Positions 1,122 to 18,202 of a DNA stretch of 64,000 nucleotides are shown here, piece by piece; position 1 is the stretch's first letter, and each line of letters starts with the position of its first letter. A program made the position numbers and the translations under genes. The notes below the pieces were generated by a model. That model did no database searches. It had not been told where the DNA came from and saw nothing but the letters and a program-made list of their open reading frames with translations. This stretch comes from Mesorhizobium atlanticum. Lineage in GTDB: Bacteria > Pseudomonadota > Alphaproteobacteria > Rhizobiales > Rhizobiaceae. The stretch lies in NCBI RefSeq assembly GCF_003289965.1, contig NZ_QMBQ01000001.1:62001-126000 (forward strand), read 5' to 3'.

Positions 1122-1254
1122 GGCTCTCCGAGGCGACTCGACGGCTCAAACAGCGGCGCAACGGCCGCAGGTCACGAAGCTTGGGTTCGTTTCCTTGCCG
1201 GCGCAATCGGCCAGGCCGGGCATGCGACCCGACCAGGGTCATGGCGGATCCGCA

Positions 1255-2232: not shown

Positions 2233-2345
2233 CTGCTTCCGGGATCGTTCATCGTTCGACCGCAGCTTAGGCGGAAATCCGTGCGGCGAGCCTTCTGAAT
2301 ACGACGTGCATGAGGTCGCAACACCATTCGGCCGCGAGCGGCAGC

Positions 2346-2693: not shown

Positions 2694-2815
2694 ACCCGCT
2701 CTTACAGGCTGCCGGCTGTCATAACAATATTGCCGGTGCCGGCCATGGATCGGTCCGCCCACGCCGGCGGCGCCCGTGCCTTCCCGGCGATGGAATGGGT
2801 CTGGCACAAAGGCCG

Positions 2816-3787: not shown

Positions 3788-3904
3788 CTTCGTACTCTCG
3801 CGCAGGAAATGCGGATTTTCAAGCATTCACAGTACAGAAGTGCCGTCCTACCTACCGCCCATTGCGACGCATGCGGCGCTCCATTCCAAACTCAGAGGCA
3901 TCAA

Positions 3905-4933
3905 ATGACCGACAAACTCGTCCTGGTGACCGGCGGCACCGGCTTCATCGCGCAACACTGCATCCTGGCGCTGCTGAACGCGGGCTACCGCGTGCGCACG
4001 ACCATCCGCTCGCCCGGCCGTGAAGCCGAGGTGCGCGCGCATCTCAAGGTCGGCGGCGTCGATGCGGGCGACCGCCTCTCCTTCGCCAACGCCGATCTCA
4101 CCGACGACCGCGGATGGGCGGAAGCGGTGGCCGGATGCGACTATGTAATGCATGGCGCCTCGCCCACGCCTTCCGGCGACCAGACCCGCGAGGAGGATTG
4201 GATCGGGCCCGCCGTCAACGGCAACCTTCAGGTGCTCAGGGCCGCGCGCGACGCCGGCGTCAACCGTGTCGTGCTGACATCGGCCTTCGGCGCGATCGGC
4301 GTCGGCCACAAGCCGGACCACCGGCGGCCCTTCGACGAAACCGACTGGAGCGACCTCAACGGCAATGTCGCGCCCTATCAGAAGTCGAAGACGCTCGCCG
4401 AGCGCGCCGCCTGGGATTTCGTGGCGCGCGAAGGCAACGGGCTGGAACTGGCGGCGGTCAATCCGGTCGCCGTCTATGGGCCGGTGCTGGGCGCCGACTA
4501 TTCGCACTCGATCAGGCTGATCGCCAACATGCTGGAGGGGCAGCCGGGATGCATCAATGTCAGTTCCTGCTGCGTCGATGTGCGCGACGTGGCGGACCTG
4601 CATCTGCGCGCCATGACCGACCCGGCCGCCAAGGGCGAGCGATTCCTCGCGACCGTCGGCGAGAGCATGTGGATGGTCGAGATCGCCGAACTGCTGCGGC
4701 AGCGGCTGGGCAAGGTCGCCGAGAAGGTGTCGACGCAGGTGTGGCCCGACGAGCAAGTGCGCATCGCCGGCGAGACCAACGCGCAGCTCAAAGGCGTGGT
4801 GCCGCTGCTCCACTACGACATGAGCGCGACGGGCAGGAAGGCCGAGCGCCTGCTGGGCTGGACGCCCCGCTCGCGGGAGGAAGCGATCCTATCCTGCGCC
4901 GAGAGCCTGGTCCGACTTGGCCTGCGCGGCTGA
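3905..4933 (+). CDS. NAD(P)-dependent epimerase/dehydratase, dihydroflavonol-4-reductase-like extended SDR
   Basis: 342 residues. The Rossmann motif VTGGTGFIAQH is at residues 8-18 and the catalytic Tyr158-x3-Lys162 pair is in APYQKSKTLAER, with Thr/Ser125-126 in LTSAFGA. The order and spacing fit extended SDRs of the dihydroflavonol reductase / aldehyde reductase group, which reduce carbonyl compounds with NAD(P)H in the cytoplasm. Substrate cannot be read from the sequence. It is divergent from the AraC/cupin regulator, its likely controller, and is followed by a hairpin repeat and then an unrelated molybdenum enzyme operon. Confidence 0.9.
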   Translation: MTDKLVLVTGGTGFIAQHCILALLNAGYRVRTTIRSPGREAEVRAHLKVGGVDAGDRLSFANADLTDDRGWAEAVAGCDYVMHGASPTPSGDQTREEDWIGPAVNGNLQVLRAARDAGVNRVVLTSAFGAIGVGHKPDHRRPFDETDWSDLNGNVAPYQKSKTLAERAAWDFVAREGNGLELAAVNPVAVYGPVLGADYSHSIRLIANMLEGQPGCINVSSCCVDVRDVADLHLRAMTDPAAKGERFLATVGESMWMVEIAELLRQRLGKVAEKVSTQVWPDEQVRIAGETNAQLKGVVPLLHYDMSATGRKAERLLGWTPRSREEAILSCAESLVRLGLRG

Positions 4934-5020
4934 GCTTCCTTGAACGACGCGCGGGGCCGGTGCATGGTTCGCGCGCGCTTTCGGCGACCGCCTGGCGGCG
5001 ACGGATAATCTCCAACGCCG

Positions 5021-5080
5021 GCGCTGCCCCTCATCCGCCCTTCGGGCACCTTCTCCCCGTATAGAGACGGGGAGAAGGAA
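5021..5080. repeat. Intergenic hairpin repeat
   Basis: A perfect 12-bp inverted repeat (5049-5060 with 5067-5078, 6-nt loop) follows a CCCCTCATCCGCCCTTCGGG lead. Similar hairpins are scattered between genes in rhizobial genomes. It lies downstream of the reductase and could end its transcript, but there is no T-run, so I treat it as a repeat first. Confidence 0.6.
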
Positions 5081-5220
5081 CTGGCCGCCACGCCCTGGCC
5101 CGGCCGCTGGGCGCATCTGGAGCATGGCTCTGGCCCAACCCGCACATGCATGAACGGGATGGCCATTATAACCAGAGGCTTTATAACGGTCGCTGACAAA
5201 GCGATCACCAAGGGGAGACG

Positions 5221-6081
5221 ATGCGTTACATACGTCCGCTTTCAATCGAAGATGCCGTTGGCGAGCTCGCCAAGGCGGTAGGACCGGCCGCCATCCTGGC
5301 CGGGGGCAGCGACCTGCTGGTGAGGATGAAGGGCGGCTTCGTCGAGCCTGAGCTGATCGTCGACATCAAGCGCATAGGCGGCCTGAGCGACGTCACCGAG
5401 ACGGCGGAAGGCTTCCGGATCGGCGCCGCGGTGCCCTGCGCGGTGCTGGGCGAGAACAAGGCGCTGCGCAAGGCATGGCCGGGCGTGGTCGAGGCGGCGA
5501 ACCTGATCGGCTCCAAGCAGGTGCAGGGCCGCTGCACCATCACCGGCAATCTGTGCAACGCCTCGCCCGCCGCCGATAGCGTGCCGGCGCTGGTGGCCGC
5601 CGGGGCGAAAGCGGTGGTCGCCGGACCTTCGGGCAAGCGCACCATCGCCGTCGAGACCGTGCCGACCGGACCGGGCCGCACCTCTTTGGCCAAGGGCGAG
5701 ATCGTCGAGGCGATCCTGCTCGACAAGCGTCCCGAGCATGCCGGCGACGCCTATCTGCGCTTCATTCCGCGCACCGAGATGGACATCGCGGTGGTGAGCG
5801 CGGGCGTGAACCTGACGCTGGATGACAAGGGCGCGATCAAGACCGCCCGCGTGGCGCTGGGCGCCGCGGCACCCACGGTGCTGCTTGTCGAGGAAGCGGG
5901 CCAGGTGCTGGTCGGCTCGAAGCTCGACGAAGCGACGATGGAACGGCTGGCGAAGATCTGCTCGGGCGCCTGCCGGCCGATCGACGACAAGCGCGGCACA
6001 ATCGAATTCAGACGTAAGGTCGCGGGCGTGCTGGCAAGGCGCGTCGCGGCAATCGCCTACAAGCGTGCGGGAGGCAAATAA
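5221..6081 (+). CDS. FAD-binding medium subunit of a molybdenum hydroxylase (CoxM-like)
   Basis: 286 residues with GGGGAGA before the ATG. The FAD-binding loop AILAGGSDLLVRMKGG and the second FAD motif ITGNLCNASPAADS match subunit M of xanthine dehydrogenase / CO dehydrogenase-type enzymes. The C-terminal third is the usual CO_deh_flav_C domain. It should pass electrons from the iron-sulfur subunit to an acceptor through FAD. It is the first gene of an M-S-L operon: its stop shares one base with the next ATG, implying translational coupling and equimolar synthesis. The organic substrate of the complex is unknown. Confidence 0.94.
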   Translation: MRYIRPLSIEDAVGELAKAVGPAAILAGGSDLLVRMKGGFVEPELIVDIKRIGGLSDVTETAEGFRIGAAVPCAVLGENKALRKAWPGVVEAANLIGSKQVQGRCTITGNLCNASPAADSVPALVAAGAKAVVAGPSGKRTIAVETVPTGPGRTSLAKGEIVEAILLDKRPEHAGDAYLRFIPRTEMDIAVVSAGVNLTLDDKGAIKTARVALGAAAPTVLLVEEAGQVLVGSKLDEATMERLAKICSGACRPIDDKRGTIEFRRKVAGVLARRVAAIAYKRAGGK

Positions 6082-6557
6082 TGGCCGGTGTAGCTGTATC
6101 AACCACGATCAACGGCGATGCCGTCGAATATCTGTGCCAGCCCGACGAGACGCTGCTGGAAGTGCTGCGCGATCGTCTCGGCCTGACCGGCGCCAAGGAA
6201 GGCTGCGGCACCGGCGACTGCGGCGCCTGCAGCGTCATAGTCGACGGCCGGCTGGTCTGCTCGTGCCTGGTGCTGGGCGCGGAAGCGGAAGGGCGCAAGG
6301 TCGAGACCATCGAAGGCATGGCGCATGGCGACCAGTTGCACCCGCTGCAGCAGAAGTTCCTGGAGCATGCGGCCCTGCAATGCGGCATCTGCACGCCAGG
6401 CTTCCTGATCGCGGCGAAGGACCTGCTCGCGAAAAACCCCTCGCCCACCGAGGAGGAAATCCGCTTCGGGCTGGCCGGCAATCTCTGCCGCTGCACCGGC
6501 TATGACAAGATCGTGCGCGCCGTCCAGGACGCGGCGAACGTGATGAAGGGAGCCTGA
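6081..6557 (+). CDS. Small [2Fe-2S] subunit of a molybdenum hydroxylase (CoxS-like)
   Basis: 158 residues. The plant-type [2Fe-2S] cluster is seen at Cys42, Cys47, Cys50 and Cys62 (GCGTGDCGACSV). The second, proximal cluster is at Cys101, Cys104, Cys136 and Cys138 (QCGICTPGF, LCRCTGY). Length and cysteine spacing are typical. It links the molybdenum site of the large subunit to the FAD subunit. It overlaps the upstream gene by one base and is 3 bp from the downstream one. Confidence 0.95.
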   Translation: MAGVAVSTTINGDAVEYLCQPDETLLEVLRDRLGLTGAKEGCGTGDCGACSVIVDGRLVCSCLVLGAEAEGRKVETIEGMAHGDQLHPLQQKFLEHAALQCGICTPGFLIAAKDLLAKNPSPTEEEIRFGLAGNLCRCTGYDKIVRAVQDAANVMKGA

Positions 6558-6560
6558 TCC

Positions 6561-8825
6561 ATGAATTTCGATCCGCGCTTTTCAGGACGCCAGTTCGCTT
6601 CCGTCGGCACGCGCCCGATCCGCCCCGACGGCGTCGACAAGGTGACGGGCCGCGCTCGCTACGGCGCCGACTTCAATATGGCCGGACAGCTGGTGGGCCG
6701 CGTGCTGCGCAGCCCGCACGCCCATGCGGTGATCAAGAAGATCGACACCTCGAAGGCGGAAAAGCTCGCCGGCGTGAAGGCGGTGATCACGGCGAAGGAC
6801 CTGCCGGACCTGACCGACGGCGATGCCGCCATGTATGACATCCTCGACAATTGCATGGCGCGCAAGAAGGCGCTCTATGACGGCCACGCGGTGGCCGCGG
6901 TGGCGGCGATCGACGCCCGCATCGCCCGCCAGGCGCTGAAGCTGATCGAGGTCGAGTATGAGGTGCTGCCGCATGTGACCGATGTCGACGAGGCCGCGCA
7001 CCACCATGCCCCGCTGATCAACGACCAGGTCTTCACCGAAGGCCTGGAGGAAAAGCCGGCGAAACCTTCCAACGTCACCAAGCGCACGCAGTTCGGCCAT
7101 GGCGATGTCCATGCCGGCTTCGCCAAGGCCGATTTCATCGTCGAGCGCTCGTACAAGACCGAGCAGACGCATCAGGGCTATATCGAGCCGCATGCCTGCG
7201 TGGCGAGCGTCAACCCGGACGGCACGGCGGACCTATGGGTCTGCACGCAGGGCCATTTCGTCTACCGCCAACACTGCGCCCAGCTGCTTGGTATGGAAGC
7301 CTCGAAGCTGCGCGTCACCTCTTCGGAAATCGGCGGCGGCTTCGGCGGCAAGACCCATGTCTGGGCCGAGCCGGTGGCGCTTGCGCTGTCGCGCAAGGCC
7401 GGCCGCCCCGTCAAGCTGGTGATGACCCGCGACGAGGTGTTCCGCGCCTCAGGGCCGACCAGCGCCACCTCGATCGACGTGAAGATCGGCGCCAGGAAGG
7501 ACGGCACGATCACCGCGGCGGAAGCGACGCTGCGCTATAGCTGCGGCCCCTATGCCGGCTCCTGGGCCGAGATCGGCGCGATGACGGCGTTCGCCTGCTA
7601 CAAGCTCGAGAACGTCAAGACCGTGGGCTACGAAGTGCTGGTCAACCGGCCGAAGACGGCGGCCTATCGCGCGCCGTCGGCGCCGATGGCGGCCTTCGCG
7701 GTGGAAAGCGCTGTCGACGAGCTTGCCCACGAGCTCGGCATGGACGCGGTGGACTTCCGCATCAAGAACGCCGCGCAGGAAGGCACCCGCGCCTCCTATG
7801 GCCCGGTCTACGGGCCGATCGGCATCGGCCCGACGCTGGAGGCGGTGAAGCACCATCCGCACATGAAGGCGCCGCTCAAAGCCAACCAGGGGCGCGGCAT
7901 GGCGTGCGGCTTCTGGTTCAATTTCGGCGGCCAGACCTGCACGGACCTGAACATCGGCATGGATGGCTCGGTGTCGCTGGCCGTGGGGACCGTCGACGTG
8001 GGTGGGTCCCGCGCGTCGCTGTCGCTGGTGGCGGCGGAGGAGCTCGGCATCGACTACAGCCATGTGAAGGCGATCGTCGCCGATACGTCTTCGCTCGGCT
8101 ACAACGACATGACCGACGGCAGCCGCGGCACCTTCTCGTCCTCGATGGCGACGATCTCGGCCGCGCGCAACGCGATCAAGATCCTGCGCGAGCGCGCCGC
8201 GCAGATGTGGGATATCCCGGTGGAGGACGTCACCTGGGAAAAGGGCCATGCGGTTGCCAAGGGCGAGAAATACGGCAACCTGTCGCCGCTGTCGCTGAAG
8301 GACATCGCGGCGAAGTCCGGCACGACCGGCGGGCCGATCGCCGGCCATAGCGAGCTTGTGGCCGACGGCGCGGGCGTCTCCTTCGCCACGCATATCTGCG
8401 ACGTCGAGGTCGACCCCGAGACCGGCTCGACCCGGGTGATCCGCTACACGGTGGTGCAGGATGCCGGCAAGGCGGTGCACCCGACCTATGTCGAGGGCCA
8501 GTACCAGGGCGGTGCGGCGCAAGGCATCGGCTGGGCGCTCAACGAGGAGTATATCTACGGCAAGGACGGGCGGCTGCAGAATGCGGGCTTCCTCGACTAC
8601 CGCATCCCGGTCTGCTCCGACCTGCCGATGATCGACACGCAGATCCTGGAAATCCCCAACCCCAACCACCCCTATGGCGTGCGCGGCGTTGGCGAGACCT
8701 CGATCGTGCCGCCGCTGGCGGCGATCGCCAACGCGGTGTCGAATGCGGTGGGCGTGCGCATGACCCACATCCCGATGTCGCCGCCGCGCATCCTCGCGGC
8801 GCTGGACGCGGAACGGGAAGGCTGA
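6561..8825 (+). CDS. Molybdopterin-binding large subunit, xanthine dehydrogenase family
   Basis: 754 residues. The N-terminal ald_Xan_dh_C domain begins near GRARYGADF. The molybdenum-cofactor motif GGGFGGKTHVW is central and the catalytic glutamate is Glu712 in RGVGETSIVPP. The active-site loop reads AYRAPSAP (residues 368-375) instead of the Cys-containing loop of form I CO dehydrogenase, so this is not an aerobic CO oxidiser of that type. It is a hydroxylase or aldehyde oxidase of undetermined substrate. It closes the M-S-L operon; a palindromic element and a MoaD/ThiS-like gene follow. Confidence 0.94.
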   Translation: MNFDPRFSGRQFASVGTRPIRPDGVDKVTGRARYGADFNMAGQLVGRVLRSPHAHAVIKKIDTSKAEKLAGVKAVITAKDLPDLTDGDAAMYDILDNCMARKKALYDGHAVAAVAAIDARIARQALKLIEVEYEVLPHVTDVDEAAHHHAPLINDQVFTEGLEEKPAKPSNVTKRTQFGHGDVHAGFAKADFIVERSYKTEQTHQGYIEPHACVASVNPDGTADLWVCTQGHFVYRQHCAQLLGMEASKLRVTSSEIGGGFGGKTHVWAEPVALALSRKAGRPVKLVMTRDEVFRASGPTSATSIDVKIGARKDGTITAAEATLRYSCGPYAGSWAEIGAMTAFACYKLENVKTVGYEVLVNRPKTAAYRAPSAPMAAFAVESAVDELAHELGMDAVDFRIKNAAQEGTRASYGPVYGPIGIGPTLEAVKHHPHMKAPLKANQGRGMACGFWFNFGGQTCTDLNIGMDGSVSLAVGTVDVGGSRASLSLVAAEELGIDYSHVKAIVADTSSLGYNDMTDGSRGTFSSSMATISAARNAIKILRERAAQMWDIPVEDVTWEKGHAVAKGEKYGNLSPLSLKDIAAKSGTTGGPIAGHSELVADGAGVSFATHICDVEVDPETGSTRVIRYTVVQDAGKAVHPTYVEGQYQGGAAQGIGWALNEEYIYGKDGRLQNAGFLDYRIPVCSDLPMIDTQILEIPNPNHPYGVRGVGETSIVPPLAAIANAVSNAVGVRMTHIPMSPPRILAALDAEREG

Positions 8826-8844
8826 GAGGTATTCTGGCTAGGGC

Positions 8845-8989
8845 AAGCTGTGTTGAGATTCAGGTCAGGCCGAGCCGAGAATGATGGTTTCCGAGAACCG
8901 GAGCGGAGCGTACTTGAAGTACGTGAGCACCGGAAGCGCAGGAAGCCGTCGTTCGCAGGCCGGCCTCACCTGAATATCGGCACAGCTTG
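8845..8989. repeat. 145-bp imperfect palindromic intergenic element
   Basis: The element opens with AAGCTGTG and closes with CACAGCTT. Inner arms TTCAGGTCAGGCC and GGCCTCACCTGAA pair, and the centre is CGTACTTGAAGTACG. It could fold into one long hairpin. From memory, elements with a CGGAGCGGAGCGTAC core recur in rhizobial intergenic regions; only one copy is seen here. It fills almost all the space between the molybdenum hydroxylase operon and the MoaD-like gene. Confidence 0.75.
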
Positions 8990-8997
8990 AGGCGGTA

Positions 8998-9243
8998 ATG
9001 GTCGAAGTCACCCTTTGGGGCTCGCTCAGCGCCGTCGCCGGCGGCAAGGCCAGGCACGACATCGAGGCCAAGGACATCAGGGAGCTGTTCCGCAAGCTGG
9101 CGGAACAGTATCCCGGCATCGAGCCCTGGATCGACCGCGGCATAGCGGTCGCGATCGACGGGACGATCTATCGCGATACGTGGAGCAAGGAACTGCCGAA
9201 GGACGCGGAGATTTTCCTGCTGCCGCGATTGGCGGGGGGATAG
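8998..9243 (+). CDS. MoaD/ThiS family sulfur-carrier-like protein
   Basis: 81 residues with a beta-grasp pattern (VEVTLWGSLSAVAGG, then IAVAIDGTIYRD, then AEIFLLPRLAGG). It ends in Gly-Gly, the feature needed for adenylation and thiocarboxylation in sulfur-carrier proteins. It lies just downstream of a molybdopterin enzyme operon, so a role in cofactor supply or sulfuration is attractive, but that is inference. No MoaE, ThiG or E1-like partner is seen in the window. The 172-bp gap is occupied by the palindromic element. Confidence 0.78.
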   Translation: MVEVTLWGSLSAVAGGKARHDIEAKDIRELFRKLAEQYPGIEPWIDRGIAVAIDGTIYRDTWSKELPKDAEIFLLPRLAGG

Positions 9244-9292
9244 CGCGCGCGGCTCGCCGGCTTTCACGGATCCCGCGCGGACGGCCTCGCGC

Positions 9293-9370
9293 CTATCGCC
9301 TGAGCCCGAAGAAGCTCAGGATGGCGAGGATGACGACGACGAGCCCGACAAGGTAGATGATGCTGTGCAT
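9293..9370 (-). CDS. Very small single-pass membrane protein (25 aa)
   Basis: An ATG at 9370 has an excellent Shine-Dalgarno (AGGAGGACC). The product starts MHSIIYLVGLVVV and ends SFFGLRR, one hydrophobic helix with a short basic tail. I recall similar unnamed 24-28-residue proteins in rhizobia, but that is memory, not a search. Function unknown. Confidence 0.55.
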   Translation of the reverse strand: MHSIIYLVGLVVVILAILSFFGLRR

Positions 9371-9579
9371 GGAGGTCCTCCTGTGGAGGATCAACAGTTA
9401 GCGACCGCTAATGTTCCAGCGATGAGGCAAGTCCGAAACGTCATCAGTTCGTATGGCGATCCGTTCAGCATATGCCGGCATGCTTCGGCAGCCGGCGCAC
9501 TGTATCCAGTCCGCCGGTCAGGCGCGGATCGTGGGATCCCCCTTCCGGGTCGGGCCGCCCCGGACAAATGGTTTACCTG

Positions 9580-9711
9580 TTACCTGTTTGGCCGGTCTTC
9601 GCGCATAACGTTGTAGAGAAGCAGGCCCGCCATCAAGGACACCACGGCGCCCAGCATGTCATGGCTGGTCAGCCCGGAATAATACACAAAAGCGAATGCC
9701 AGTTCGGCCAT
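9580..9711 (-). CDS. Small hydrophobic hypothetical protein (43 aa)
   Basis: Starts MAELAFAFVYYSG with GGTGGAACC upstream, has one clear hydrophobic stretch (MLGAVVSLMAGLLLYNVM) and ends in the polar tail REDRPNR. The longer in-frame version adds a proline/alanine-rich head with no family look. Not recognised. Probably a single-pass membrane peptide. Confidence 0.4.
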   Translation of the reverse strand: MAELAFAFVYYSGLTSHDMLGAVVSLMAGLLLYNVMREDRPNR

Positions 9712-9877
9712 GGTTCCACCCGGCTGGGCGATGCTCCTGAGAGAACCCCTGGCGCGGGCTAAGGTTCCTGAAGCTCGCGCCGATCCTGGGCACGGTCCCG
9801 GTGCCTTCTCAGGCCAGCCGCATGCAATGGGGTCGATCAAGGCCGCGAGGGCTGACGGAGCGACCGGCACCCCTACC

Positions 9878-10258
9878 CTAGCTTTGCCTGTCAGCCCGCT
9901 CTTTCAGAAAATGCGCCTCGCGAAGGAGCGCATCCCAGTCGGTCCCGATCGTCTCGATCAGCTCGCCGGCCTGTTCCTGGGTGATGCCGGTTTCCCTTGC
10001 CAGGCGCCCTGCAAGCAATTCGAAGACGGCTTGGTCGCTCTCCCCGAGGCTGCCTTCGCGATGTTGCAACGCCTCGAAGATCACTTCGAAGACGCTGTCG
10101 ACTTCCTCGTCGATCTCGCTGGCCGGGATGCCTTCGCGCCCTGCCGCCTTCATCATCTCGTCGACGAGATCGGCCACCGCTACCGGGTCGTCCGTCAGCA
10201 CGTTCGGCAGATGCTCCGCCATCCATCTGTCGAAGAAGTCGAGACCGCGCCTGCTCAT
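9878..10258 (-). CDS. DUF768 family protein
   Basis: 126 acidic residues beginning MSRRGLDFFDRWMAEHLPN. The opening and the following alternation of helical acidic blocks (DLVDEMMKAAGREGIPASEIDEEVDSVFEVIFEAL) match DUF768, a family largely restricted to Mesorhizobium and close relatives. Function unknown. A near-palindromic 30-bp element about 45 bp upstream of the start (10303-10332) recurs near 63.0 kb and could be its control site. Confidence 0.85.
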   Translation of the reverse strand: MSRRGLDFFDRWMAEHLPNVLTDDPVAVADLVDEMMKAAGREGIPASEIDEEVDSVFEVIFEALQHREGSLGESDQAVFELLAGRLARETGITQEQAGELIETIGTDWDALLREAHFLKERADRQS

Positions 10259-10302
10259 GTGGCCATAAGCGCGCGGGCAACATTAGGTTCCGCTGATGGG
10301 GA

Positions 10303-10332
10303 CTGAGGTCCCATGCGCCGGCGCATTGGTCC
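10303..10332. repeat. 30-bp near-palindrome, copy 1
   Basis: Centred on the perfect 12-bp palindrome TGCGCCGGCGCA, with GGTCC and GGTCC/GGACC-like flanks. A second copy at 63020-63049 matches at 28 of 30 positions. This copy sits upstream of the DUF768 gene. It could be a regulator site or the core of a decayed repeat. Confidence 0.55.
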
Positions 10333-10541
10333 ATCGCGTGAAACATAGACCCTGCGATCTCATTGGGGCTGTGCTGACGAGCATCAGTCCCTTCATCGTC
10401 AGGCTGCCGGATCGCCCGCCATCTGCCCACAGGTGGCGGGCATCTGACGACAAGGCAATCAGCCTCTTCATCGGGCCGGGGATGTTCTCGTGCCTGATGC
10501 CGGGCATCCGGAACACGGCGTTGGACAGTATGGAGGCAAGC

Positions 10542-10724
10542 ATGATCACCACGACCTTGGAGAGCAGGGTGGCGGGTTTGCAGGACAGGCTGAGAGCAGC
10601 CAAGCTCAGCACGGATGACATGCTGGCCTTCCAAAAGGTCGCGGACGTGCTGGACAATGGCCATGGCGCCATCGACCTCGACGACCTGATCGCGCTGTCG
10701 TTTGTGGTGGAGGATGAGGATTGA
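10542..10724 (+). CDS. Small helical hypothetical protein (60 aa)
   Basis: The ATG at 10542 is preceded by GGAGGCAAGC. The product runs MITTTLESRVAGLQDRLRA and ends in acidic SFVVEDED. It is predicted to be soluble and largely helical. Not recognised. Longer in-frame starts lack family character and ribosome sites. Confidence 0.5.
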   Translation: MITTTLESRVAGLQDRLRAAKLSTDDMLAFQKVADVLDNGHGAIDLDDLIALSFVVEDED

Positions 10725-10770
10725 GGGTGAGCCAAGACGCGGCGAGGCCACCCTACGCTCACGATGCCCG

Positions 10771-11553
10771 CTAGTATTTTGCTCCGCGACGACCTCGGGC
10801 TGGCCCAGAATGCGGAGGTCTCGCATAGCTCCAACGCCGAGCGGTTAGTCCCCTTCGGACAACCCACGCAATGGCATCCATGGGGATGATCTGCTCCCTA
10901 GTCCTAGCCGAGTCGATAAACCAGGATCGCGAAACAGCCGCAAGAACGGCATGGCCGTCGATACGCCCTGGTAGCAAACACCAAAGCTTGCCCTGCATTT
11001 CCGGAGGTAATCCGTCTGGGGCTGCGAAGCCTTCGAAATCGAATAGGACCGGCTTTGTGCAGTTGAGCCAAACTGCGGGCAGACAACTTTCAGGGCTACG
11101 CGTAAGGAACAAGCCATTTGCAAAGGGCACACTGAATAGTTTTCCCCCCGCGAGGAACCGCTTCCGGTCATTCTTTAGGCGCATCCCGTCCACGATCCAG
11201 ATCATGTTCCGGTAAAAAGTCTCGCGCGCAGTTCTCTCTTGCGCAGGCAAGTGGGAATGCTGGAACTCGATCACTTGGCCATTTCCGGTCATTACATCGG
11301 CGACGTGCTTCTCACCTTTTTCATCGTGCTGGATGATTTCCTGCCATTCCGAGGGAAAATGATCCTTCCAGCGGCGGTGCCAGAGAGTTTCTGGTTCCCA
11401 CCAAGGATCGCAGTTCCTATTGCCCTGATGCGCCCAATGCCAAACGCGTTGTGTTCCGCACTTTGCGATCATCTGTTGTGAGCAAACGAGGCATTGGCCC
11501 ACCAATGCGGGAGCGGCCTCACTTCGTTCGTTATTCACCAATGCACGCCGCAT
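10771..11553 (-). CDS. CoiA-like nuclease
   Basis: 260 residues from the ATG at 11553, chosen for GGAGAAAGTT just upstream; more upstream starts add unlike sequence. The N-terminus has a zinc-ribbon-like CLVC and the tryptophan/histidine-rich RVWHWAHQGNRNCDPWWEPE block typical of CoiA proteins. The nuclease core HVADVMTGNGQVIEFQHS has the D...ExQ pattern of PD-(D/E)xK-like enzymes. CoiA homologues act on DNA in competence, and solitary relatives occur in mobile or defence regions. This gene is visibly less GC-rich than its neighbours and lies beside the ParA/HEPN-like trio, so it may belong to the same imported island. Confidence 0.72.
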   Translation of the reverse strand: MRRALVNNERSEAAPALVGQCLVCSQQMIAKCGTQRVWHWAHQGNRNCDPWWEPETLWHRRWKDHFPSEWQEIIQHDEKGEKHVADVMTGNGQVIEFQHSHLPAQERTARETFYRNMIWIVDGMRLKNDRKRFLAGGKLFSVPFANGLFLTRSPESCLPAVWLNCTKPVLFDFEGFAAPDGLPPEMQGKLWCLLPGRIDGHAVLAAVSRSWFIDSARTREQIIPMDAIAWVVRRGLTARRWSYARPPHSGPARGRRGAKY

Positions 11554-11863
11554 AACTTTCTCCACAATCGCGGCTGCCCGTTGCAGCCAGCCACCGGTTT
11601 CTTGCGAGGAATGTTTCGGCAGCATAGCCAGCCATAAGTTGGCGCTGGTTCTTCTTATCGTCGACGTAAGGGGGCAACCCACTGTCGGTTATCGTGCGAC
11701 TGTCCTCAATGCCCGGCGTCGCTTCTTCTCAAGGCACGAGGAGGATTGTAGCTGCCGAACTAGGTTGGTCAAGTCTCGGTGTTGCGAGGGTCCACGCGCC
11801 AACACATGGACATAGCCGGATACCAGTCCAGCGGCGACACATCGTTCAAATTTGTTATCCCCG

Positions 11864-12607
11864 TCAGCGAATAACTTTCACGCTAAAGGCCGACTTGATT
11901 AAAGCATCTTTTGAGGCTGGAATGGCCAGCGAAAGCGCTTCTCTTAACCCCTTGTTGGCTGCACCTTGAAGGCGCTCATGAAAGAGCGGCAACATTAGCA
12001 AGTTGACGTCGCGAAGTACGTTCTTTTGAGTCGCGGCCCATTTTCCAACGCCATCAGCACTCGTCTTCCAAAGGTTCGACTTTTCTATTTCGTTGGTCAT
12101 TCTGAATTCGCGAGCGGAAGAATGGACAACGTTCGACAGATGACTGTAATGAGACCTTAGCGTCGCTGGTGACTTCAAGGATTCAGGCAGATTACAAATT
12201 TCCGGATGTTCCGCAAAGTAGTCGAATAATTCTTTAAACGTTGGGCGATATTTTCCCTGATCCCACTGCCGATATTCCACCGGATGATCCATAAAGAAAA
12301 GCGATTGTATTGTATTCTCGATCAAGCTTCTAAGTGACTTCATCGCCGGCCGCCACATGCCGACAGAAATCAAGACAGACGAGGTTAGTCCATCATTCTG
12401 CGCTTCCGAAAAGAAGCCCAGGGCTCCAGCTGAAATTTTCTCTTCCAAAACGAATGACCGCCAAGCTTGTAAGGTCGTCAACCGCGAATAGGCGTCGTCT
12501 AGTTTCGCGGAGCTACTTCCGATAACTGTCAACAGATTCGCGGTTAGCTTCCCTCCAAGACCATTCCGAAACTGCTGCGCGTTGGCCTTGATCTCCGCAT
12601 CGGGCAT
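11864..12607 (-). CDS. HEPN-like all-helical protein, last gene of the ParA trio
   Basis: 247 residues, almost wholly helical by composition. The segment around residues 85-130 (SLRSLIENTIQSLFFMDHP then EYRQWDQGKYRPTFKELFDY) and the motif Arg151-x4-His156 followed by HLSNVVHSS resemble helical proteins of the HEPN/DUF5677-like superfamily, in which RxxxxH is the RNase signature. This is motif reading, not a search result. The start follows the upstream gene's stop by 6 bp, so the three genes form one operon. GC content is clearly below the window average. A toxin or effector role is inference. Confidence 0.5.
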   Translation of the reverse strand: MPDAEIKANAQQFRNGLGGKLTANLLTVIGSSSAKLDDAYSRLTTLQAWRSFVLEEKISAGALGFFSEAQNDGLTSSVLISVGMWRPAMKSLRSLIENTIQSLFFMDHPVEYRQWDQGKYRPTFKELFDYFAEHPEICNLPESLKSPATLRSHYSHLSNVVHSSAREFRMTNEIEKSNLWKTSADGVGKWAATQKNVLRDVNLLMLPLFHERLQGAANKGLREALSLAIPASKDALIKSAFSVKVIR

Positions 12608-12613
12608 GACAAA

Positions 12614-13033
12614 TCACGGCTTCTTCATCAAAATCGCAAGAGCGCGTGCAAGAGCCGAAGTTTGTTCTGGCTCATCCTCGGCTACATCACTAGCTAGCCT
12701 ATCACGAATGTCCGGGTTTTCCTGAATGTGCCTTAAAATCTTTCCAAGAATATCACGGACAGCGTCAGCTTTTCTAACCTCTATCGGTATCCTGAAATAA
12801 TTCGCCAAATCAAGCAGTTCCTGCTTGTTATAACTTGCCATCTGCGCAAGGAGCGCCAAGCCCGTTCCTTTGTCGGCCATATCAGGTCGTTCCATATCCC
12901 GGCGTTGCCTTTGTGGACGAGGCGACATAGCGTAAGTTGTAAGATTTGTGAGTTCTTCAAAATCAATATTAGGTCCAGCGCGCAGTACGCGAGAAAGGTG
13001 GTTGAGCGCCTTGGCTAATTCATGAGTTTTCAT
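12614..13033 (-). CDS. Hypothetical protein with SAP-like helix-turn segment, middle gene of the ParA trio
   Basis: 139 residues. Residues 66-100 (SYNKQELLDLANYFRIPIE then KADAVRDILGKI) resemble a SAP or Rho-N-type helix-extension-helix that binds nucleic acid. The N-terminal part is helical and the C-terminus acidic. The ATG overlaps the ParA stop codon by one base (TAATG), implying translational coupling. No family name can be given with certainty. By position it could be the DNA- or RNA-binding partner of the ATPase. Confidence 0.55.
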   Translation of the reverse strand: MKTHELAKALNHLSRVLRAGPNIDFEELTNLTTYAMSPRPQRQRRDMERPDMADKGTGLALLAQMASYNKQELLDLANYFRIPIEVRKADAVRDILGKILRHIQENPDIRDRLASDVAEDEPEQTSALARALAILMKKP

Positions 13034-13839
13034 TAGAAGCCTACGTTCTGATCGAGTTCAGCAAATATATAGTTGAACTCAGCTATCGCATCCTTGTCGC
13101 CGCTATCATAAATAGATTCGGTCTTCTCCATTGCCGCACTTATTGCTGTGCGATCAGCAATCTTTCCCTGAAGGACCTTGCCATTAAAATTCCCGCGAAC
13201 GCCGCTTTCAGTCTCCGCCCTGTGCTTTGCCGGCCTTCCGACGCGAGAGATGACTATGCCCGCGTTTATCAAATTGACATCTAGGTCTTCGGATAGAACC
13301 TCAATCCGACCGAGGAGCAAACCGATACCAAGAACCGAAAGATAGTCCAGAGAGACCGGCACCATGTAATGCGTGCTAATGGCTAATGCGTTTTGCGTGG
13401 GAAGCGTCAGATTCGGCGGACAATCACAGATTACAATATTATAATCACCAAGATGATCCTTCAGTGATTTCTTAAGCTGAAACTCGCGAGCGGTGAGCCC
13501 AGCTAGATCAAGATCAACCGTAAAAAGATCAAGGTGCGATGGAATTAAGTCGACATTCTTCCACGCGCTGCTAATAACCACATCGCTGAAATCTTTCACC
13601 GCGCCTTGGGCGCTTTTGTGGCGCCGAGCACCAAGAAGATCAGCAACAGTTCCTTTGGTCTTTGTATGATCCTCCCAACCCTCTACACCTATCATGCCGA
13701 AACTGGCATTGGCTTGGGGATCTAAATCACACAGCAATACCTTACGTTTTTTTCGACCGCAGTATGCCGCATAGTTGACTGCCAAAGTGGTCTTCCCGAC
13801 GCCACCCTTCAAATTGATTGACGATAATACGATAGTCAT
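13033..13839 (-). CDS. ParA/Soj-type P-loop ATPase, first gene of the trio
   Basis: 268 residues from MTIVLSSINL; an upstream in-frame ATG at 13875 adds 12 residues and lacks a ribosome site. The deviant Walker A motif KGGVGKTT is at residues 11-18, the A' motif CDLDPQAN near 37-44 and Walker B IVICDCPPN later. There is no N-terminal HTH, so it is the short Soj-like form. ParA proteins dimerise on DNA with ATP and usually position plasmids, chromosomes or protein complexes with a ParB-like partner. No ParB or replication gene is nearby; the two following genes take its place. Low GC for the window. Confidence 0.88.
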   Translation of the reverse strand: MTIVLSSINLKGGVGKTTLAVNYAAYCGRKKRKVLLCDLDPQANASFGMIGVEGWEDHTKTKGTVADLLGARRHKSAQGAVKDFSDVVISSAWKNVDLIPSHLDLFTVDLDLAGLTAREFQLKKSLKDHLGDYNIVICDCPPNLTLPTQNALAISTHYMVPVSLDYLSVLGIGLLLGRIEVLSEDLDVNLINAGIVISRVGRPAKHRAETESGVRGNFNGKVLQGKIADRTAISAAMEKTESIYDSGDKDAIAEFNYIFAELDQNVGF

Positions 13840-14058
13840 TTGATTCACGCCCGATATCGCGGTTGAGGCAGCCATAGCGCATTGTTTGCGCCGAAGCGAG
13901 GGCGTTCGCTGGCACGTCCCGCAAGTCGTTCGGCTTTCGCGAGGCGCGCAGACGTAGTGACGGCCTGCCGCACCACCCCACCCACAAATTTCTCCTCCCC
14001 CACGGACACATCTCCCGCCTCGCGCGTTAATGCGCCTATCGTCGACGGGCTGAGTTTC

Positions 14059-14256
14059 ATGGCCTCAGGGCAAGGGTGGGTCGCCGGATCGATCCGCGCC
14101 CGTCGCTGGGGTTCGAGCCCGCTCGGGCCGTTGAGGCATGGACGCCAAGCCTTCGCACCACGGTCAACCTGATGCTCGCGGCCGAAGCGCAGATCGTGCT
14201 GTATTGCGGGCCGGACTTCGTCCCGCTCTACAACGACGCTGGCACGGTATTCCCTC
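14059..14256 (+). pseudogene. Fragment of a PAS-domain (HWE-type) sensor kinase, frameshifted and truncated
   Basis: One frame encodes SIRARRWGSSPLGP and the next continues VEAWTPSLRTTVNLMLAAEA and then CGPDFVPLYNDAG. Joined, these read like the conserved N-terminal PAS segment of rhizobial sensor kinases (RAFDWS.TPLGP.EAWP.SLRT, then W.GP....YNDAY). One base appears lost near 14130, and the similarity stops abruptly after YNDAG. It is a gene remnant lying between the low-GC island and ordinary sequence. Nothing else convincing is coded between 13840 and 14457. Confidence 0.6.
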
Positions 14257-14457
14257 CAGCGCCTGTTCCTCCTCGCCCTACCCGCCGAGCACCTCCACTT
14301 CACTCCCGGCACATGCCCACACCAGCGGAGTGTGCCTGTCTGGCGGACCCACCTATCGACGGGCTCCTTTCCCGCAACAGTTGCACTCTCTCATGGAACC
14401 AACCTTCCGTTGGCGCGTAGTCTCGCGGTCGTCCCCAGCACGAGAGGCAAGGTGCCC

Positions 14458-14808
14458 ATGCCCGTCCGCAGGAAACGCAGGAAGCACTCCGGCAGCGATC
14501 TTTTGCTGGCGCCGGCGGTGATCGGCATGCGGGTGCCGCTGCTGGTGCTGGACGCGATCAGCCATGCGCCCAACGGGCGGGAGGCGCTGCGGGCGGTGCA
14601 GGAGAAGGCGCTTGCGGCGACCGAAGGCCTGTTCGCGGCGCAGGCAAAGACGCTCGAGGCGGCGTTGCGCTTCTGGCCTGACGTCCTTTCCGGCAAAAGC
14701 CCATCGCTTTGCGACGGAACGGTGGCGATGGAAGCGGCGGCGGCCGCCATGCTGCCCGCGGCCCAGCAGGTGCGGCGCAATTTCGACCGGCTTTCCAAAC
14801 GGCGCTGA
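14458..14808 (+). CDS. Hypothetical helical protein, faintly phasin-like
   Basis: 116 residues from MPVRRKRRKHSG, with AAGGTG upstream; the earlier in-frame start runs through the kinase remnant and is not used. A basic N-terminus is followed by an alanine-rich amphipathic helical body (LEAALRFWPDVLSG, AMEAAAAAMLPAAQQVRRNF) in the style of small phasin or granule-associated proteins. No motif is decisive. A RIME-like repeat follows. Confidence 0.5.
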   Translation: MPVRRKRRKHSGSDLLLAPAVIGMRVPLLVLDAISHAPNGREALRAVQEKALAATEGLFAAQAKTLEAALRFWPDVLSGKSPSLCDGTVAMEAAAAAMLPAAQQVRRNFDRLSKRR

Positions 14809-14859
14809 CCGCGCCGCAAGCGTCCGCCGGTGCGGGACGCTCCGGCTCGGCCGCAGGCT

Positions 14860-14960
14860 AAAGCGCGTCGCGTCTGAACGCCCTCACGCGACGCGCTTTA
14901 GGTTGTTGTTTTTATGCATGTCGTTGTCCCAAAACCGCTGCACACTTTTGGGCGACATGC
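14860..14960. repeat. RIME-like intergenic mosaic element, copy 1
   Basis: Two successive palindromes: AAAGCGCGTCGCG paired with CGCGACGCGCTTT, then a GCATGTC...CACTTTTGGGCGACATGC unit. Copies with the same plan are at 39564-39666 and 62456-62558. RIME elements are a described rhizobial repeat class built from two palindromes. It ends one base before the stop codon of the flavodoxin gene encoded on the opposite strand. Confidence 0.8.
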
Positions 14961-14961
14961 A

Positions 14962-15489
14962 TCAGCCGATCGTTGCGAGGAACCGGTCGGTGAAGCCGGC
15001 GAGCGCGTTCCAGTCGGTGAATTCGTGATCCTGCCCTGGGCCTGGATCCTCGCCCTTCATGACGACGAATTTGACGAACTGCTCCTGGAAGTAATCGTAT
15101 TTGGTGAAGCGCAAGGCGCCGCCCAGCAGAAGCGTCATGCGCGGCTGCCAACCCGTCACGGAGACGAAGCGGTCGACATATTTCTGGGCAGCGGCCTCGT
15201 GGCCGTCCAGCGCCGCCGACAGGCTGACCGAAACCAGCGCCGAAGGCTTGCCGCTCAACAGGTCGTGATGCGCGAACACGAAAGTCGTGACGGCTTCCTG
15301 ATGGTGCTCCTGGTGGACCGACGCGGCAATAATGAAGGCGTCGAAATGCCCGAGCTTCAGATCGGGCGTGAACCTCGCACTGTCCAGCAGCTCGACCTGA
15401 TGCCTGCGCCCGCGAATGTCGGTCGCCATCCGTTCAGCGATTTTCCTGGTCTGCCCTTCAGTCGTTCCATAGACGATCAAGAGGTTCAC
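14962..15489 (-). CDS. Flavodoxin-domain protein, HemG-like (menaquinone-dependent protoporphyrinogen oxidase family)
   Basis: 175 residues from a GTG at 15489 with GGAGGGACATC before it; ATG starts further up add unrelated sequence. The FMN phosphate loop YGTTEGQTRKIAERM opens the protein. The motifs FDAFIIAASVHQEHH, LLLGGALRFTKYDYF and HEFTDWNAL follow the order seen in HemG, and the length is close to the 181 residues of E. coli HemG. HemG needs menaquinone, whereas rhizobia mainly use ubiquinone, so the true role may be a generic FMN oxidoreductase. Cytochrome b561-type genes lie nearby. Confidence 0.78.
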   Translation of the reverse strand: MNLLIVYGTTEGQTRKIAERMATDIRGRRHQVELLDSARFTPDLKLGHFDAFIIAASVHQEHHQEAVTTFVFAHHDLLSGKPSALVSVSLSAALDGHEAAAQKYVDRFVSVTGWQPRMTLLLGGALRFTKYDYFQEQFVKFVVMKGEDPGPGQDHEFTDWNALAGFTDRFLATIG

Positions 15490-15965
15490 GATGTCCCTCC
15501 GACAGAGGTTGATGGGGACCATCCGACTTGCCCGGCGCGCCCCAATGCAACGGAGCGCATCATAGCGCATGAAAGGGGCTTCACGCACCGATTTTCGCGC
15601 CGGCGCGGATGCCCAGGTTCGTGCCATTTTCGCGGGCCGCAATTCGCGCTGACGCCTGCGCGCCGGCCATCGGCGAGCCGCGTGCGCTCGGCCGGCCGGC
15701 GCGGGAGGACTTGGCGGAGCTGCGGCTCGACGCGCATGCAACGTCGCTTCTGCGATCGCGCCATGTCGCGGCGCCGCTACTTTAGCTATCTTGAATATGC
15801 GGCGGACCCAGGTTCGCCGGGCCGGCGTCGGGGCGCTGCCCCCTCACGCAACAGGCGCCGGCCACTCAGAAAGCGGCCCCGCGCGCCAGGCGCCGGCTCG
15901 GTGTTCGCCGCCAGCGCCGCCTGCGCGGCCGATGCGACGGCGCCCGTCCTGCCCGGGCGCCTTCT
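15490..15965. other. Stretch without a convincing gene
   Basis: High-GC sequence with overlapping arginine-rich open frames on both strands, none with a family-like product or a credible start. The promoter of the flavodoxin gene should lie at its left edge. Confidence 0.4.
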
Positions 15966-16076
15966 GGAGCGTTTCACCGTTTCGGCGAACCGCCCTATCT
16001 CTTTGTTTTGAGGCAATTCCGGACGGAAGGCTGCGGCGAAGACGCCGAGCCTAACCGCCTTGCTTGGAATTGCTCT
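15966..16076. repeat. GCAATTCCGGACGGAA intergenic element, copy 1
   Basis: Runs from GAGCGTTTCACCGTTTCGGC through GAGGCAATTCCGGACGGAA to GGAATTGCTC. The ends pair as an inverted repeat. Related copies are at 48299-48346 and, in tandem, 52067-52244. Its right end touches the stop codon of the cytochrome b561 gene. Confidence 0.75.
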
Positions 16077-16611
16077 ATTCGCGGCTCTCGGCGAGGTCGT
16101 TCGCGGTGAGCGGGTTCATGCGCTCCAGCGTCCCGTCCTTCATGACGAACTGGTGCCAAATGGCGATCAGCGCATGGGCGCCGGCCAGCCACAGGATCAG
16201 CGTGCCGCCGGTTTCGTGCAGGTCGGCAATCAGGCCCGGCGCGCCCTGCACGGGCGCGGCGAGCGCCGGCAGGTCCAGCCCCAGGAAGGAGACCTGGATG
16301 CCCAGGCGCGAGGCGGCATACCAGCCGCTCAGCGGCAGCGCGATGAGGAACAGGTAGAGCACCGTGTGTCCGGCGCGCGCGGCAAGGTCCATCCAGCGGC
16401 TCTGCGGGTCCTCGACGCGGGGCGCCGCGCCCAGCCAGCGCGCCAAGAGGCGCGGCACGACCAGCAGCAGAACGGCAAGGCCGAGGGTGAAATGCAGGTA
16501 GGGCGGGTCGGCGCGCGCATGGCGCCCGCCCTCGGCAGTGAACCAGGCGGCGACGACCAAAAGGGCCGTAAGCCAGTGGATCGCAATGGTGATCTGTGAA
16601 TAGCGCCGCAT
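16075..16611 (-). CDS. Cytochrome b561 family protein
   Basis: 178 residues, four membrane helices. The N-terminal QITIAIHWLTALLVVAAW carries the first haem-ligand His, YLHFTLGLAVLLLVVPRLL the second, HTVLYLFLIALPLSGWYAA the third helix, and HETGGTLILWLAGAHALIAIWH the last pair. It is a di-haem b-type cytochrome of the inner membrane moving electrons between quinol and a periplasmic acceptor. Stop codon TAG overlaps the repeat to its left. A second cytochrome b and a PepSY protein lie just upstream. Confidence 0.9.
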   Translation of the reverse strand: MRRYSQITIAIHWLTALLVVAAWFTAEGGRHARADPPYLHFTLGLAVLLLVVPRLLARWLGAAPRVEDPQSRWMDLAARAGHTVLYLFLIALPLSGWYAASRLGIQVSFLGLDLPALAAPVQGAPGLIADLHETGGTLILWLAGAHALIAIWHQFVMKDGTLERMNPLTANDLAESRE

Positions 16612-16736
16612 TAGGCATGCTCCGTCTTTTTAGGCTCGCGTGATGCCGAGGCCGGGAACGCCTCGGCGCGCAAACGCCGATATGGTTCCGCGGGCGTCCA
16701 GGCAGGCGCCCGCGGTTGCCCCGGTGCGGGGCGCGT

Positions 16737-17333
16737 TCAGGCGATGTCGGCCGGCGCGGCTTTGCGCTTGCGGCCGGTGATCATCGCGCGAACAAGGTTT
16801 TCATTATGGCGAAGGCTTGCCATCGCCACGCCGCCGATATGGACGAGCACCAGCGCGAGCAGGCCGTGCGCGGCGAGGCTGTGCGCGTCCTCCACCCAGG
16901 ACACGCCGAAATACGCGTCCGTCGTCTGCATCCACCCGGTCACCGCCACCGACACCATCATGGCCATCAGCACGATCACCATCGCGCCGCCAGCCGGGTT
17001 ATGGCCGATATAGCGGGCCTCGCTGCCCTTGATGATGGCAAGGAGATAGCGCAGCACCGTCGCGGGATCGCGCACGAATTGCGAGAAGCGCGCATAGGGC
17101 GTGCCGACGATGCCCCAGACCAGCCGCATGGCGACAAGCGAGGCGGCGGCGTAGCCGGCCCAGTGGTGGATGTTCTCGGCGCTTTGCGGCGTGAACCAGG
17201 CGATTGCGAAGCTCAGCACCAGCGCCCAGTGGAAGCCGCGCACGACACGGTCCCAGACGCGCACGACGTCGAGTGACGGGCGCGCGTGGGCCTGTGCCGG
17301 CAAGGCTCGATCAGTTTTCGCCGGCTTCGGCAT
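16737..17333 (-). CDS. Cytochrome b/b6-domain membrane protein, probable Ni-hydrogenase-type b561
   Basis: 198 residues from MPKPAKTDRA. Four helices with haem-ligating histidines are seen in VWDRVVRGFHWALVLSF, NIHHWAGYAAASLVAMRLVWG and HSLAAHGLLALVLVHIGGV. The GTPYARFSQFVRDP and RYIGHNPAGGAMV segments are standard for the family. The start lies inside the 3' end of the PepSY gene (23-base overlap), so the two are translated together. Such b561/PepSY pairs probably form a small membrane electron-transfer unit; the donor and acceptor are unknown. Confidence 0.9.
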   Translation of the reverse strand: MPKPAKTDRALPAQAHARPSLDVVRVWDRVVRGFHWALVLSFAIAWFTPQSAENIHHWAGYAAASLVAMRLVWGIVGTPYARFSQFVRDPATVLRYLLAIIKGSEARYIGHNPAGGAMVIVLMAMMVSVAVTGWMQTTDAYFGVSWVEDAHSLAAHGLLALVLVHIGGVAMASLRHNENLVRAMITGRKRKAAPADIA

Positions 17334-17586
17334 TGTCGAGCTTCTCGAGCGTCTCGGCATTGTAGGCGGTGTTGACCTTCTTGCCGTCCTTGTCGACCGC
17401 ATAGACCTCGTAGCAGCCTTTCTCGGTCTTGATCTGGCGCACGGTCAGGCCCTCGCCCTTCAACTGCGCCTCGAGCGTCGCCTTGGGCTGGAACTTCGAT
17501 TTCGCGGCGGTGCTGCAGGTGCCGGCCGCCAGCGCCGGTCCGGCGATCACGCCCGCGAGGGCGGCGATAACGAGAGTGCGATACAT
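17311..17586 (-). CDS. Exported PepSY-domain protein
   Basis: 91 residues from MYRTLVIAALAG with GGAGATCCC upstream. A signal peptide probably ends after GPALAA. The mature part has the PepSY pattern (LEAQLKGEGLTVRQIKTEKG then CYEVYAVDKDGKKVN). It is periplasmic and overlaps the following cytochrome b gene, with which such proteins are commonly paired. Confidence 0.85.
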   Translation of the reverse strand: MYRTLVIAALAGVIAGPALAAGTCSTAAKSKFQPKATLEAQLKGEGLTVRQIKTEKGCYEVYAVDKDGKKVNTAYNAETLEKLDNAEAGEN

Positions 17587-17776
17587 GGGATCTCCATCTG
17601 GTTGGGAGTGGTATTGCGGCCGAGAGGCCATGACGGCGTTGCGCGCGTCACTGGCGAGGCATAGCGAATCCAACCTGACAACCGACTGACAGAAGTCCCG
17701 GAAAAGATGGCGGGCGCGATAGAACCGGGCGACGTGCGCGATAGCGCTGAAAGTCTGGGGCTGATCCGACGGGCTC

Positions 17777-18202
17777 CTAAACGGCGAGCGTCGGCTCGGT
17801 ATTCACCTCCAGCGCCGCTTCCGCCTCGTGATCCTCGTCGGGCAGGACCTCGCCGTGCACCGCCAGCGGGCGGCCGATCCAGATCGGGTCGATGAGGTGG
17901 TCGCGCTTGGCGTTGGCGGTGTTGGGGTGGATGAGGATGCTCAGGCCGCCATGGTTCAGCATCAGCCACGGAACCAGCGTGGCGAAAAGGCCGGTGGCGA
18001 AGGAGACCTGGTACATGGCCTCGTCATGCGGGCCGACCTTCTTGTCGTGCCAGTTGCCCAGGCGCACGCGAAAACGCTCGCCGATGCGCTCGCGCAGCCA
18101 TTCGGCGTGCCGGCGCTCGGCCGGCCCGGCGAAATAGATATGGGCGTGATAGCTGGCGATCTCCGAAAGCTGTCTCGGATTATCTGGTGTGGCGTCGTTC
18201 AT
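17777..18202 (-). CDS. DOPA 4,5-dioxygenase family protein
   Basis: 141 residues. The histidines expected for the iron site are visible in [22 protein letters not shown] and [14 protein letters not shown], in the family order and length. The eukaryotic enzyme cleaves an aromatic catechol ring; bacterial members have unproven substrates. It stands alone between the PepSY gene and a GC-rich repeat. Confidence 0.85.

Follow-up and report, generated by a model that had tools for sequence, protein, structure and literature searches.

A rare, conserved three-gene module led by a ParA-type ATPase, with a predicted HEPN-like third protein, in phages, prophages and bacterial chromosomes

We analysed a 64,000-nucleotide stretch of the Mesorhizobium atlanticum genome (contig NZ_QMBQ01000001.1, positions 62,001 to 126,000; hereafter the window) and focused on three adjacent minus-strand genes at 11864-13839, here called the trio. 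They encode a ParA/Soj-type ATPase (268 amino acids, 13033..13839, minus strand), a small partner termed protein B (139 amino acids, 12614..13033, minus strand) and an all-helical, DUF5677-like protein C (247 amino acids, 11864..12607, minus strand) that is predicted to be HEPN-like and is the likely effector. All three genes are open and show the operon packing that the initial annotation had described: the ParA stop and the B start overlap by one base at the junction TTCTAATGAAAACT (TAATG), and 6 bp separate B from C. We placed the ParA start at 13839, from where its relatives align, rather than at 13875 as given by the open reading frame (ORF) tool. The trio also has the low guanine-plus-cytosine (GC) content relative to neighbouring genes that had been remarked upon, with values of 0.478 for ParA, 0.476 for B and 0.487 for C versus a mean of 0.646 (standard deviation 0.044) over 52 non-overlapping, script-picked window ORFs of at least 150 amino acids; no other ORF in this list is as low as ParA and C (B falls below the size limit and thus outside the list). 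In the flanks read by eye (about 9.5-19 kb) no ParB, replication or conjugation gene was recognised, again as annotated. No direct repeats of at least 20 nt, the only form in which parS-like sites were sought in the window, surround the trio, and a scan for promoters and terminators returned counts like those in shuffled sequence.

The three genes recur as a unit. ParA, B and C lie in the same order and on the same strand at 14 distinct loci, which span two phyla and belong to bacteria as well as phages (the window, L003 with its equivalents L009 and L011, L004, L005, L006, L007, L008, L013, L016, L036, L037, L039, L040 and L044), and the co-occurrence elsewhere on which the initial annotation had made its proposal depend is therefore real. 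A gene stands at the position of B in all 14, and "B" signifies position and size in the Gram-positive loci and in L013, L037 and L044 because the sequences are too distant: proteobacterial and Gram-positive B proteins could not be aligned, and the B-position genes of L013, L037 and L044 are too far removed for a homology call. Searches with B led to eight loci, all eight with ParA directly upstream and C downstream. Searches with C led to six places besides the window, four of which (L003/L011, L013, L037 and L044) have both ParA and a gene in the place of B, while the contigs of the other two (L010 and L012) start at or inside C and leave the upstream genes out of view. L044 was found by a C profile alone, to which the related protein from L037 had contributed, and this locus too proved to hold ParA and a B-position gene. 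Intergenic gaps ranged from -11 to +10 bases at the 10 loci measured. Between L003 and L006 the nonsynonymous distance (dN) was 0.057 for ParA, 0.095 for B and 0.132 for C, and the synonymous distance (dS) was 1.7 for B and not computable, hence taken as saturated, for ParA and C.

Two of the phage loci were reached through ParA, by searching the P2-type ParA against phage records. The phage ParA searches yielded 35 and 84 overlapping records, and of the four neighbourhoods that were opened (H1, H20, H39 and H41) two hold the trio (L016 and L040) and two hold another, longer next gene, annotated as ParB in L017. In Streptococcus phage Javan1 (L040), B is an unannotated ORF of 113 amino acids (3408-3749) that overlaps the ParA gene. 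In tblastn searches of phage records, the B relative P0087, P0174, P0182 and window C gave no match, and P0185 matched its own record only. The published gene table of Lactococcus garvieae phage PLg-TB25 (L016), in the portion available, gives for each of the three genes an L. lactis relative, and the accession numbers of these relatives run consecutively; L. lactis is therefore likely to have the trio as well. Overall, the trio has the rare and patchy distribution that would be expected of mobile cargo. Counting by B, and including the window genome, it was found in 2 of 297 genomes of the order and 2 of 385 of the class; counting by C in the phylum, it was found in 3 of 398 (A3, 1e-5; window genome included) or 2 of 398 genomes (A2, E value 1e-10). 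Within the family of genome G080, B occurred in one of five genomes, G080 itself.

Five of the 14 loci are phage or prophage homes (a Mu-like prophage, a P2-like prophage, a prophage-like stretch of Agrobacterium, Lactococcus phage PLg-TB25 and Streptococcus phage Javan1), three of them from a viral-contig search and two from phage records, a share that is inflated because viral contigs and phage records were searched. In L003 the trio sits inside the late operon of the Mu-like prophage, between the genes for Phage_Mu_F and the Mu-like (Mu I) protease. In the P2-like prophage L013 the C gene adjoins the portal gene, and in L012, also P2-like, C at the contig edge is followed by a D12 methylase gene and then by portal and terminase genes. 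Excerpts of a study of Escherichia coli P2-like phages describe the gpA-gpQ interval as a hotspot and report that defence systems cloned out of it were functional (PMC9122126); in L012 and L013 the gpQ side of this interval is visible, and the gpA side is not in view. In PLg-TB25 the trio lies two genes past the endolysin gene, and the accessible part of a report on another L. garvieae prophage places an AbiF-type gene downstream of the lysis module (PMC5431838). In Javan1 the trio stands between repressor and integrase genes. The surroundings of L006, which adjoins an S24/HTH (helix-turn-helix) repressor-type gene and an IrrE/HTH gene, read as prophage-like. At L039 the trio is enclosed by 126-nt direct repeats (321-446 and 2852-2977; 99% identical, 2531 bases apart), with a GC content of 0.52 inside the repeats and 0.68-0.72 outside, and the repeats suggest a cassette-like insertion with a duplicated target.

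The chromosomal site in the window is itself variable. The closest relative found, genome G658, is collinear with window positions 1253-10731 and again from 17787 onwards, with 83-92% identity over the main pieces and interruptions at about 2758-4932 and at small gaps. Between these alignment breaks the window holds a variable stretch of 7 kb (10731..17787, no strand assigned) that contains more than the trio. In the corresponding place G658 has about 4.25 kb with one gene for a protein of 1239 amino acids (L035:6628-10347; GC 0.549) that scores as Upx (PADLOC PDLC02221, 710.5 bits, near full length) and gave no Pfam match at E values up to 0.001. Because the flanks match, the same spot holds a catalogued defence gene in G658 and the trio in the window. 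This was seen in one relative; other members of the genus provided no clear flank pair.

On sequence grounds, the first gene product is a member of the ParA/Soj ATPase family. It matches the Pfam family AAA_31 with 135.5 bits, its nearest solved relatives are ParA/Soj chains in the PDB (down to 2e-24), and its deviant Walker A motif KGGVGKTT is complete, in agreement with the initial annotation; the 10 ParAs aligned from trio loci all share KGGVGKT. It also scores against partition profiles, and its matches to PADLOC 2.0 are short ones to the P-loop (PDC-M28B and mad8).

Protein C, for which a protein search returned 90 homologues, had been described as HEPN-like with an R-x4-H motif. Its predicted structure is confident (predicted local distance difference test, pLDDT, 93.8) and all-helical, and the best structural matches are HEPN domains at modest scores, HepT chains among them. 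The motif is present in the sequence as R151-x4-H156, but it is not conserved: the closest aligned relative has K in place of R and others have G or other residues, and we therefore rejected it as the catalytic motif. Invariant in all 16 aligned C proteins, including the P2-type, Lactococcus and G023-type sequences at 17-23% identity, are instead F65, E68, R93, E97, E111, L157, S158 and H162; the identity of C is 23% in L013 and 18% in L037. The R-S-x2-E (R93-S-x2-E97) and V-H signatures also persist when eight Gram-positive relatives are aligned on their own. The proteobacterial and Gram-positive profiles align on exactly these two signatures (62% probability, E value 7.4e-5 for a single comparison), and the single Javan1 protein reached only 2.8% against the proteobacterial profile. 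In the model, E97 lies within helix 85-107 and H162 ends helix 146-162 (core helices 2 and 3 in our numbering). The portions seen of the 2013 HEPN survey by Anantharaman et al. place the catalytic motif at the loop between helices 3 and 4, assign a conserved acidic residue to helix 2, and note families that have lost part of Rx4-6H (PMC3710099). Protein C is thus predicted to match the HEPN active-site layout without the classic Rx4-6H motif, and fold and layout together lean towards HEPN membership.

Profile searches with C gave few other leads. In Pfam it matched DUF5677 (PF18928) only, at E values up to 1, and this match barely passes the cut-off (28.1 versus 27.1 bits, residues 76-126); among the relatives scanned, two scored above the cut-off, two below and three not at all. 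A PHROG of unknown function gave a weak match (22 bits), no PADLOC 2.0 model matched, PDB sequence profiles offered nothing convincing, and a viral structure library held no match below an E value of 0.001.

Protein B, for which a protein search returned 89 homologues, has no match above cut-off in Pfam or NCBIfam, none to ParB in the Pfam scan and none in PADLOC or PHROGs. Among 26 aligned sequences the invariant positions include M1, K2, L10, L17, L62, K70, D90, R93, D94 and G97; besides the invariant M1-K2, an N-terminal helix and a C-terminal segment around D90-R93-D94-G97 are conserved. The SAP/Rho-N-like segment that had been seen in B by eye found no such Pfam family at E values up to 1. 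As B lacks a family match and its predicted model is poor (pLDDT 60.7), too poor for a judgement of fold, we regard this likeness as mere resemblance and rejected the view that a SAP domain is proven for B. In Lactococcus, both B and C strongly match PHROGs of unknown function, and Javan1 B gave one weak PADLOC match, to JetA (14.8 bits).

We propose, at about even chances of being right, that the trio is a conserved module of phages, prophages and chromosomes with a predicted anti-phage or toxin-antitoxin role, in which ParA and B would likely form a DNA-bound sensor and restraint and C is a probable HEPN-like effector. The proposal draws on the shared gene order, the phage and prophage homes, Upx at the corresponding site of G658, the Mrr-type, HNH_2 and HATPase neighbours, the predicted fold of C, the dN and dS values as a sign of selection, and the published HEPN-ParA/Soj pair. 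In such a scheme ATP-bound ParA would sit on DNA as other ParA proteins do; these bind DNA non-specifically as ATP dimers and are released once a partner triggers hydrolysis. B would link ParA to C, and perhaps also to DNA, and ParA-ATP with B would keep C inactive on the DNA. Invading phage DNA, or the loss of host DNA during infection, could then disturb the ParA-B-C complex, and freed C would cut RNA and stop growth before phage is produced. Both close relatives L004 and L005 retain intact ParA and B next to a broken C, which is truncated after residue 82 in L004 (8431-8901) and interrupted by an in-frame stop in L005 (8431-8967); a harmful third gene fits, because C alone decayed in these two loci. 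The motif arginine is missing from C, which renders RNA cutting doubtful, although R93 might replace it. A role of the trio in defence is a prediction for which genomic location alone speaks. A more far-reaching version, tentative and on the unlikely side, would make nucleoid occupancy by ParA the sensor of a new class of immunity: ParA-ATP and B on host DNA would lock C, takeover of the DNA by a phage or a phage protein that discharges ParA would free C to destroy RNA, and the module would be interchangeable cargo of temperate phages whose hosts range from Alphaproteobacteria to the genera Lactococcus and Streptococcus.

The homes of the trio in phages and prophages would also suit an addiction toxin-antitoxin of mobile DNA, in which ParA or B neutralises C and loss of the element frees it, with no sensing of phages. 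The retention of ParA and B beside a broken or lost C in L004 and L005 is what a decaying toxin would leave, and a ParA/Soj ATPase acting as antitoxin of a HEPN toxin has been postulated in print, in the portion consulted of the 2013 survey (PMC3710099). Yet the position beside the portal gene in the P2-like prophage and the presence of Upx at the same site in G658 speak against addiction. Addiction modules abound on plasmids, and none of 72,556 plasmid records matched window B and C or the C proteins of the Pseudomonas, P2-type and Lactococcus loci; we hold this explanation to be unlikely. The same plasmid result stands against an ordinary small partition system, in which ParA and a centromere-binding B, with C as an accessory, would maintain a phage or plasmid form through cell divisions. 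As far as tested (B and C of the window, the P2-type C and two distant relatives of C), homologues are not plain plasmid partition genes, and this had been named at the outset as a way for the proposal to fail. The other two ways named there did not come up either: the genes do occur together elsewhere, and the predicted fold of C matches HEPN domains best, at modest scores. We rejected plasmid partition as first choice because window B and C as well as P0174, P0182 and P0185 found nothing among the plasmid records. Partition gains from the scores of ParA against partition profiles and from the small partner genes that are typical of some ParA partition loci. It gains further from a ParB/RepB-like gene, recognised by eye, at 7889-9322 of L010, a viral contig that starts at C, with about 7 kb between C and this downstream gene. 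Excerpts on the E. coli P2-like phages also report that roughly one in four has a putative partition system, which may or may not be kin to the trio (PMC9122126). Against it, inspection by eye rather than by profile revealed no ParB next to the trio in the stretches covered, and the two phage ParA hits whose next gene is of ParB type, being annotated so or long (L017 and L018), are arranged differently. Furthermore, Mu-like phages do not, to our knowledge, exist as plasmids. We consider partition quite improbable.

Very unlikely, in our estimation, is a growth-arrest module akin to ParA-Shi that times the life cycle of its element rather than fighting other phages. The passages available on ICEclc describe a ParA that acts with the small protein Shi to halt host division and needs its ATPase motif to do so, and they give shi as a 258-bp gene followed by parB (PMC6812849). 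By contrast, B is longer than Shi, a conserved HEPN-like gene makes up the third member of the trio, and the trio occurs in unrelated elements and at different positions. The two systems share a ParA on mobile DNA, devoted in ICEclc to growth control; no HEPN-like gene is described for ICEclc in those passages (PMC6812849). Compared with ParABS and other type I partition loci, the trio has a ParA with an intact deviant Walker A motif and a small downstream partner in common, and differs in the absence of a ParB recognisable by eye, in its third, HEPN-like gene and in having no plasmid match.

The closest precedent for a ParA-restrained effector is the dyad of a HEPN protein of the MAE_18760 family and a ParA/Soj-like ATPase that was predicted in 2013 to be a toxin-antitoxin pair, in which an RNase toxin of HEPN type would be countered by the ATPase, according to the sections of the survey at hand (PMC3710099). 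As in the trio, a ParA/Soj gene lies directly beside a HEPN-type gene, the ATPase would provide the restraint and the HEPN protein the toxicity. Unlike the trio, the dyad comprises two genes and lacks the conserved small middle gene, MAE_18760 keeps Rx4-6H in those sections whereas C is without it, and only the trio is placed at phage cargo positions. Within Pfam, C matched DUF5677 only, and it was not compared directly with a MAE_18760 profile. HepT-MntA (HEPN-MNT) pairs similarly set a HEPN-like helical effector beside a nucleotide-binding restraint; the trio has a ParA ATPase in place of the nucleotidyltransferase, B in addition, and no conserved Rx4-6H. The abortive infection (Abi) proteins of Lactococcus (AbiF, AbiV and others) include HEPN-type phage-resistance proteins, as far as the survey excerpts extend (PMC3710099), and the AbiF-type gene of the L. 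garvieae prophage lies about where PLg-TB25 has the trio, judging from the part of that report seen (PMC5431838). A PADLOC-listed lactococcal Abi system was considered for the PLg-TB25 trio and rejected, as there was no such match. We know of no ParA partner of the lactococcal HEPN-type Abi proteins.

No PADLOC 2.0 system was matched by window B or C, and the two other trios that were scanned behaved alike save for the weak JetA match. We class the trio as a ParA-restrained HEPN-type module, a variant beside the published two-gene pair, because its ParA assignment is firm, its fold and layout lean towards HEPN, no catalogued defence system matches, and nothing positive emerged for a partition or MAE_18760 assignment. 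The idea that the system is undescribed stands in part. Among the best-ranked literature matches, in which subscription papers and bioRxiv were mostly not represented, we found no description of the three-gene form, and PMC12839542 does not mention ParA, Soj, MinD, SIMIBI or DUF5677; the two-gene HEPN-ParA/Soj form, on the other hand, is in print in the portion seen of the 2013 survey (PMC3710099). The genes of the trio carry the labels "chromosome (plasmid) partitioning protein" or "hypothetical" in the two phage records that hold it. A partition label is the usual one for ParA genes; if the module is a defence system, a class of immunity would be concealed by it. It would also be a concrete, testable case for the 2013 idea that ParA/Soj restrains a HEPN toxin, with the induced and isolated phage PLg-TB25 as one source.

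Several genes near the trios deserve mention as raw observations, set against no null. They include an Mrr-type endonuclease (L008), an HNH_2 protein (L004), a relaxase (L036) and, at L037, an HATPase that weakly matches HSDR_N. At L036, a protein of 479 amino acids (5729-7168) without a Pfam match, 1.6 kb upstream of the trio, weakly matches PADLOC PDC-M28C (26.5 bits). In L007 a small nucleotidyltransferase-like gene (60-308, MNT-type by eye) about 200 bp upstream of the trio recalls the HEPN-MNT pairs. In the window, a CoiA-like gene (10771-11682, minus strand; CoiA_N 30.7 bits, a nuclease-like domain below cut-off, GC 0.558) was not noticed, on inspection by eye only, next to other trio loci; it marks the edge of the low-GC stretch, 181 bp beyond C in the downstream direction.
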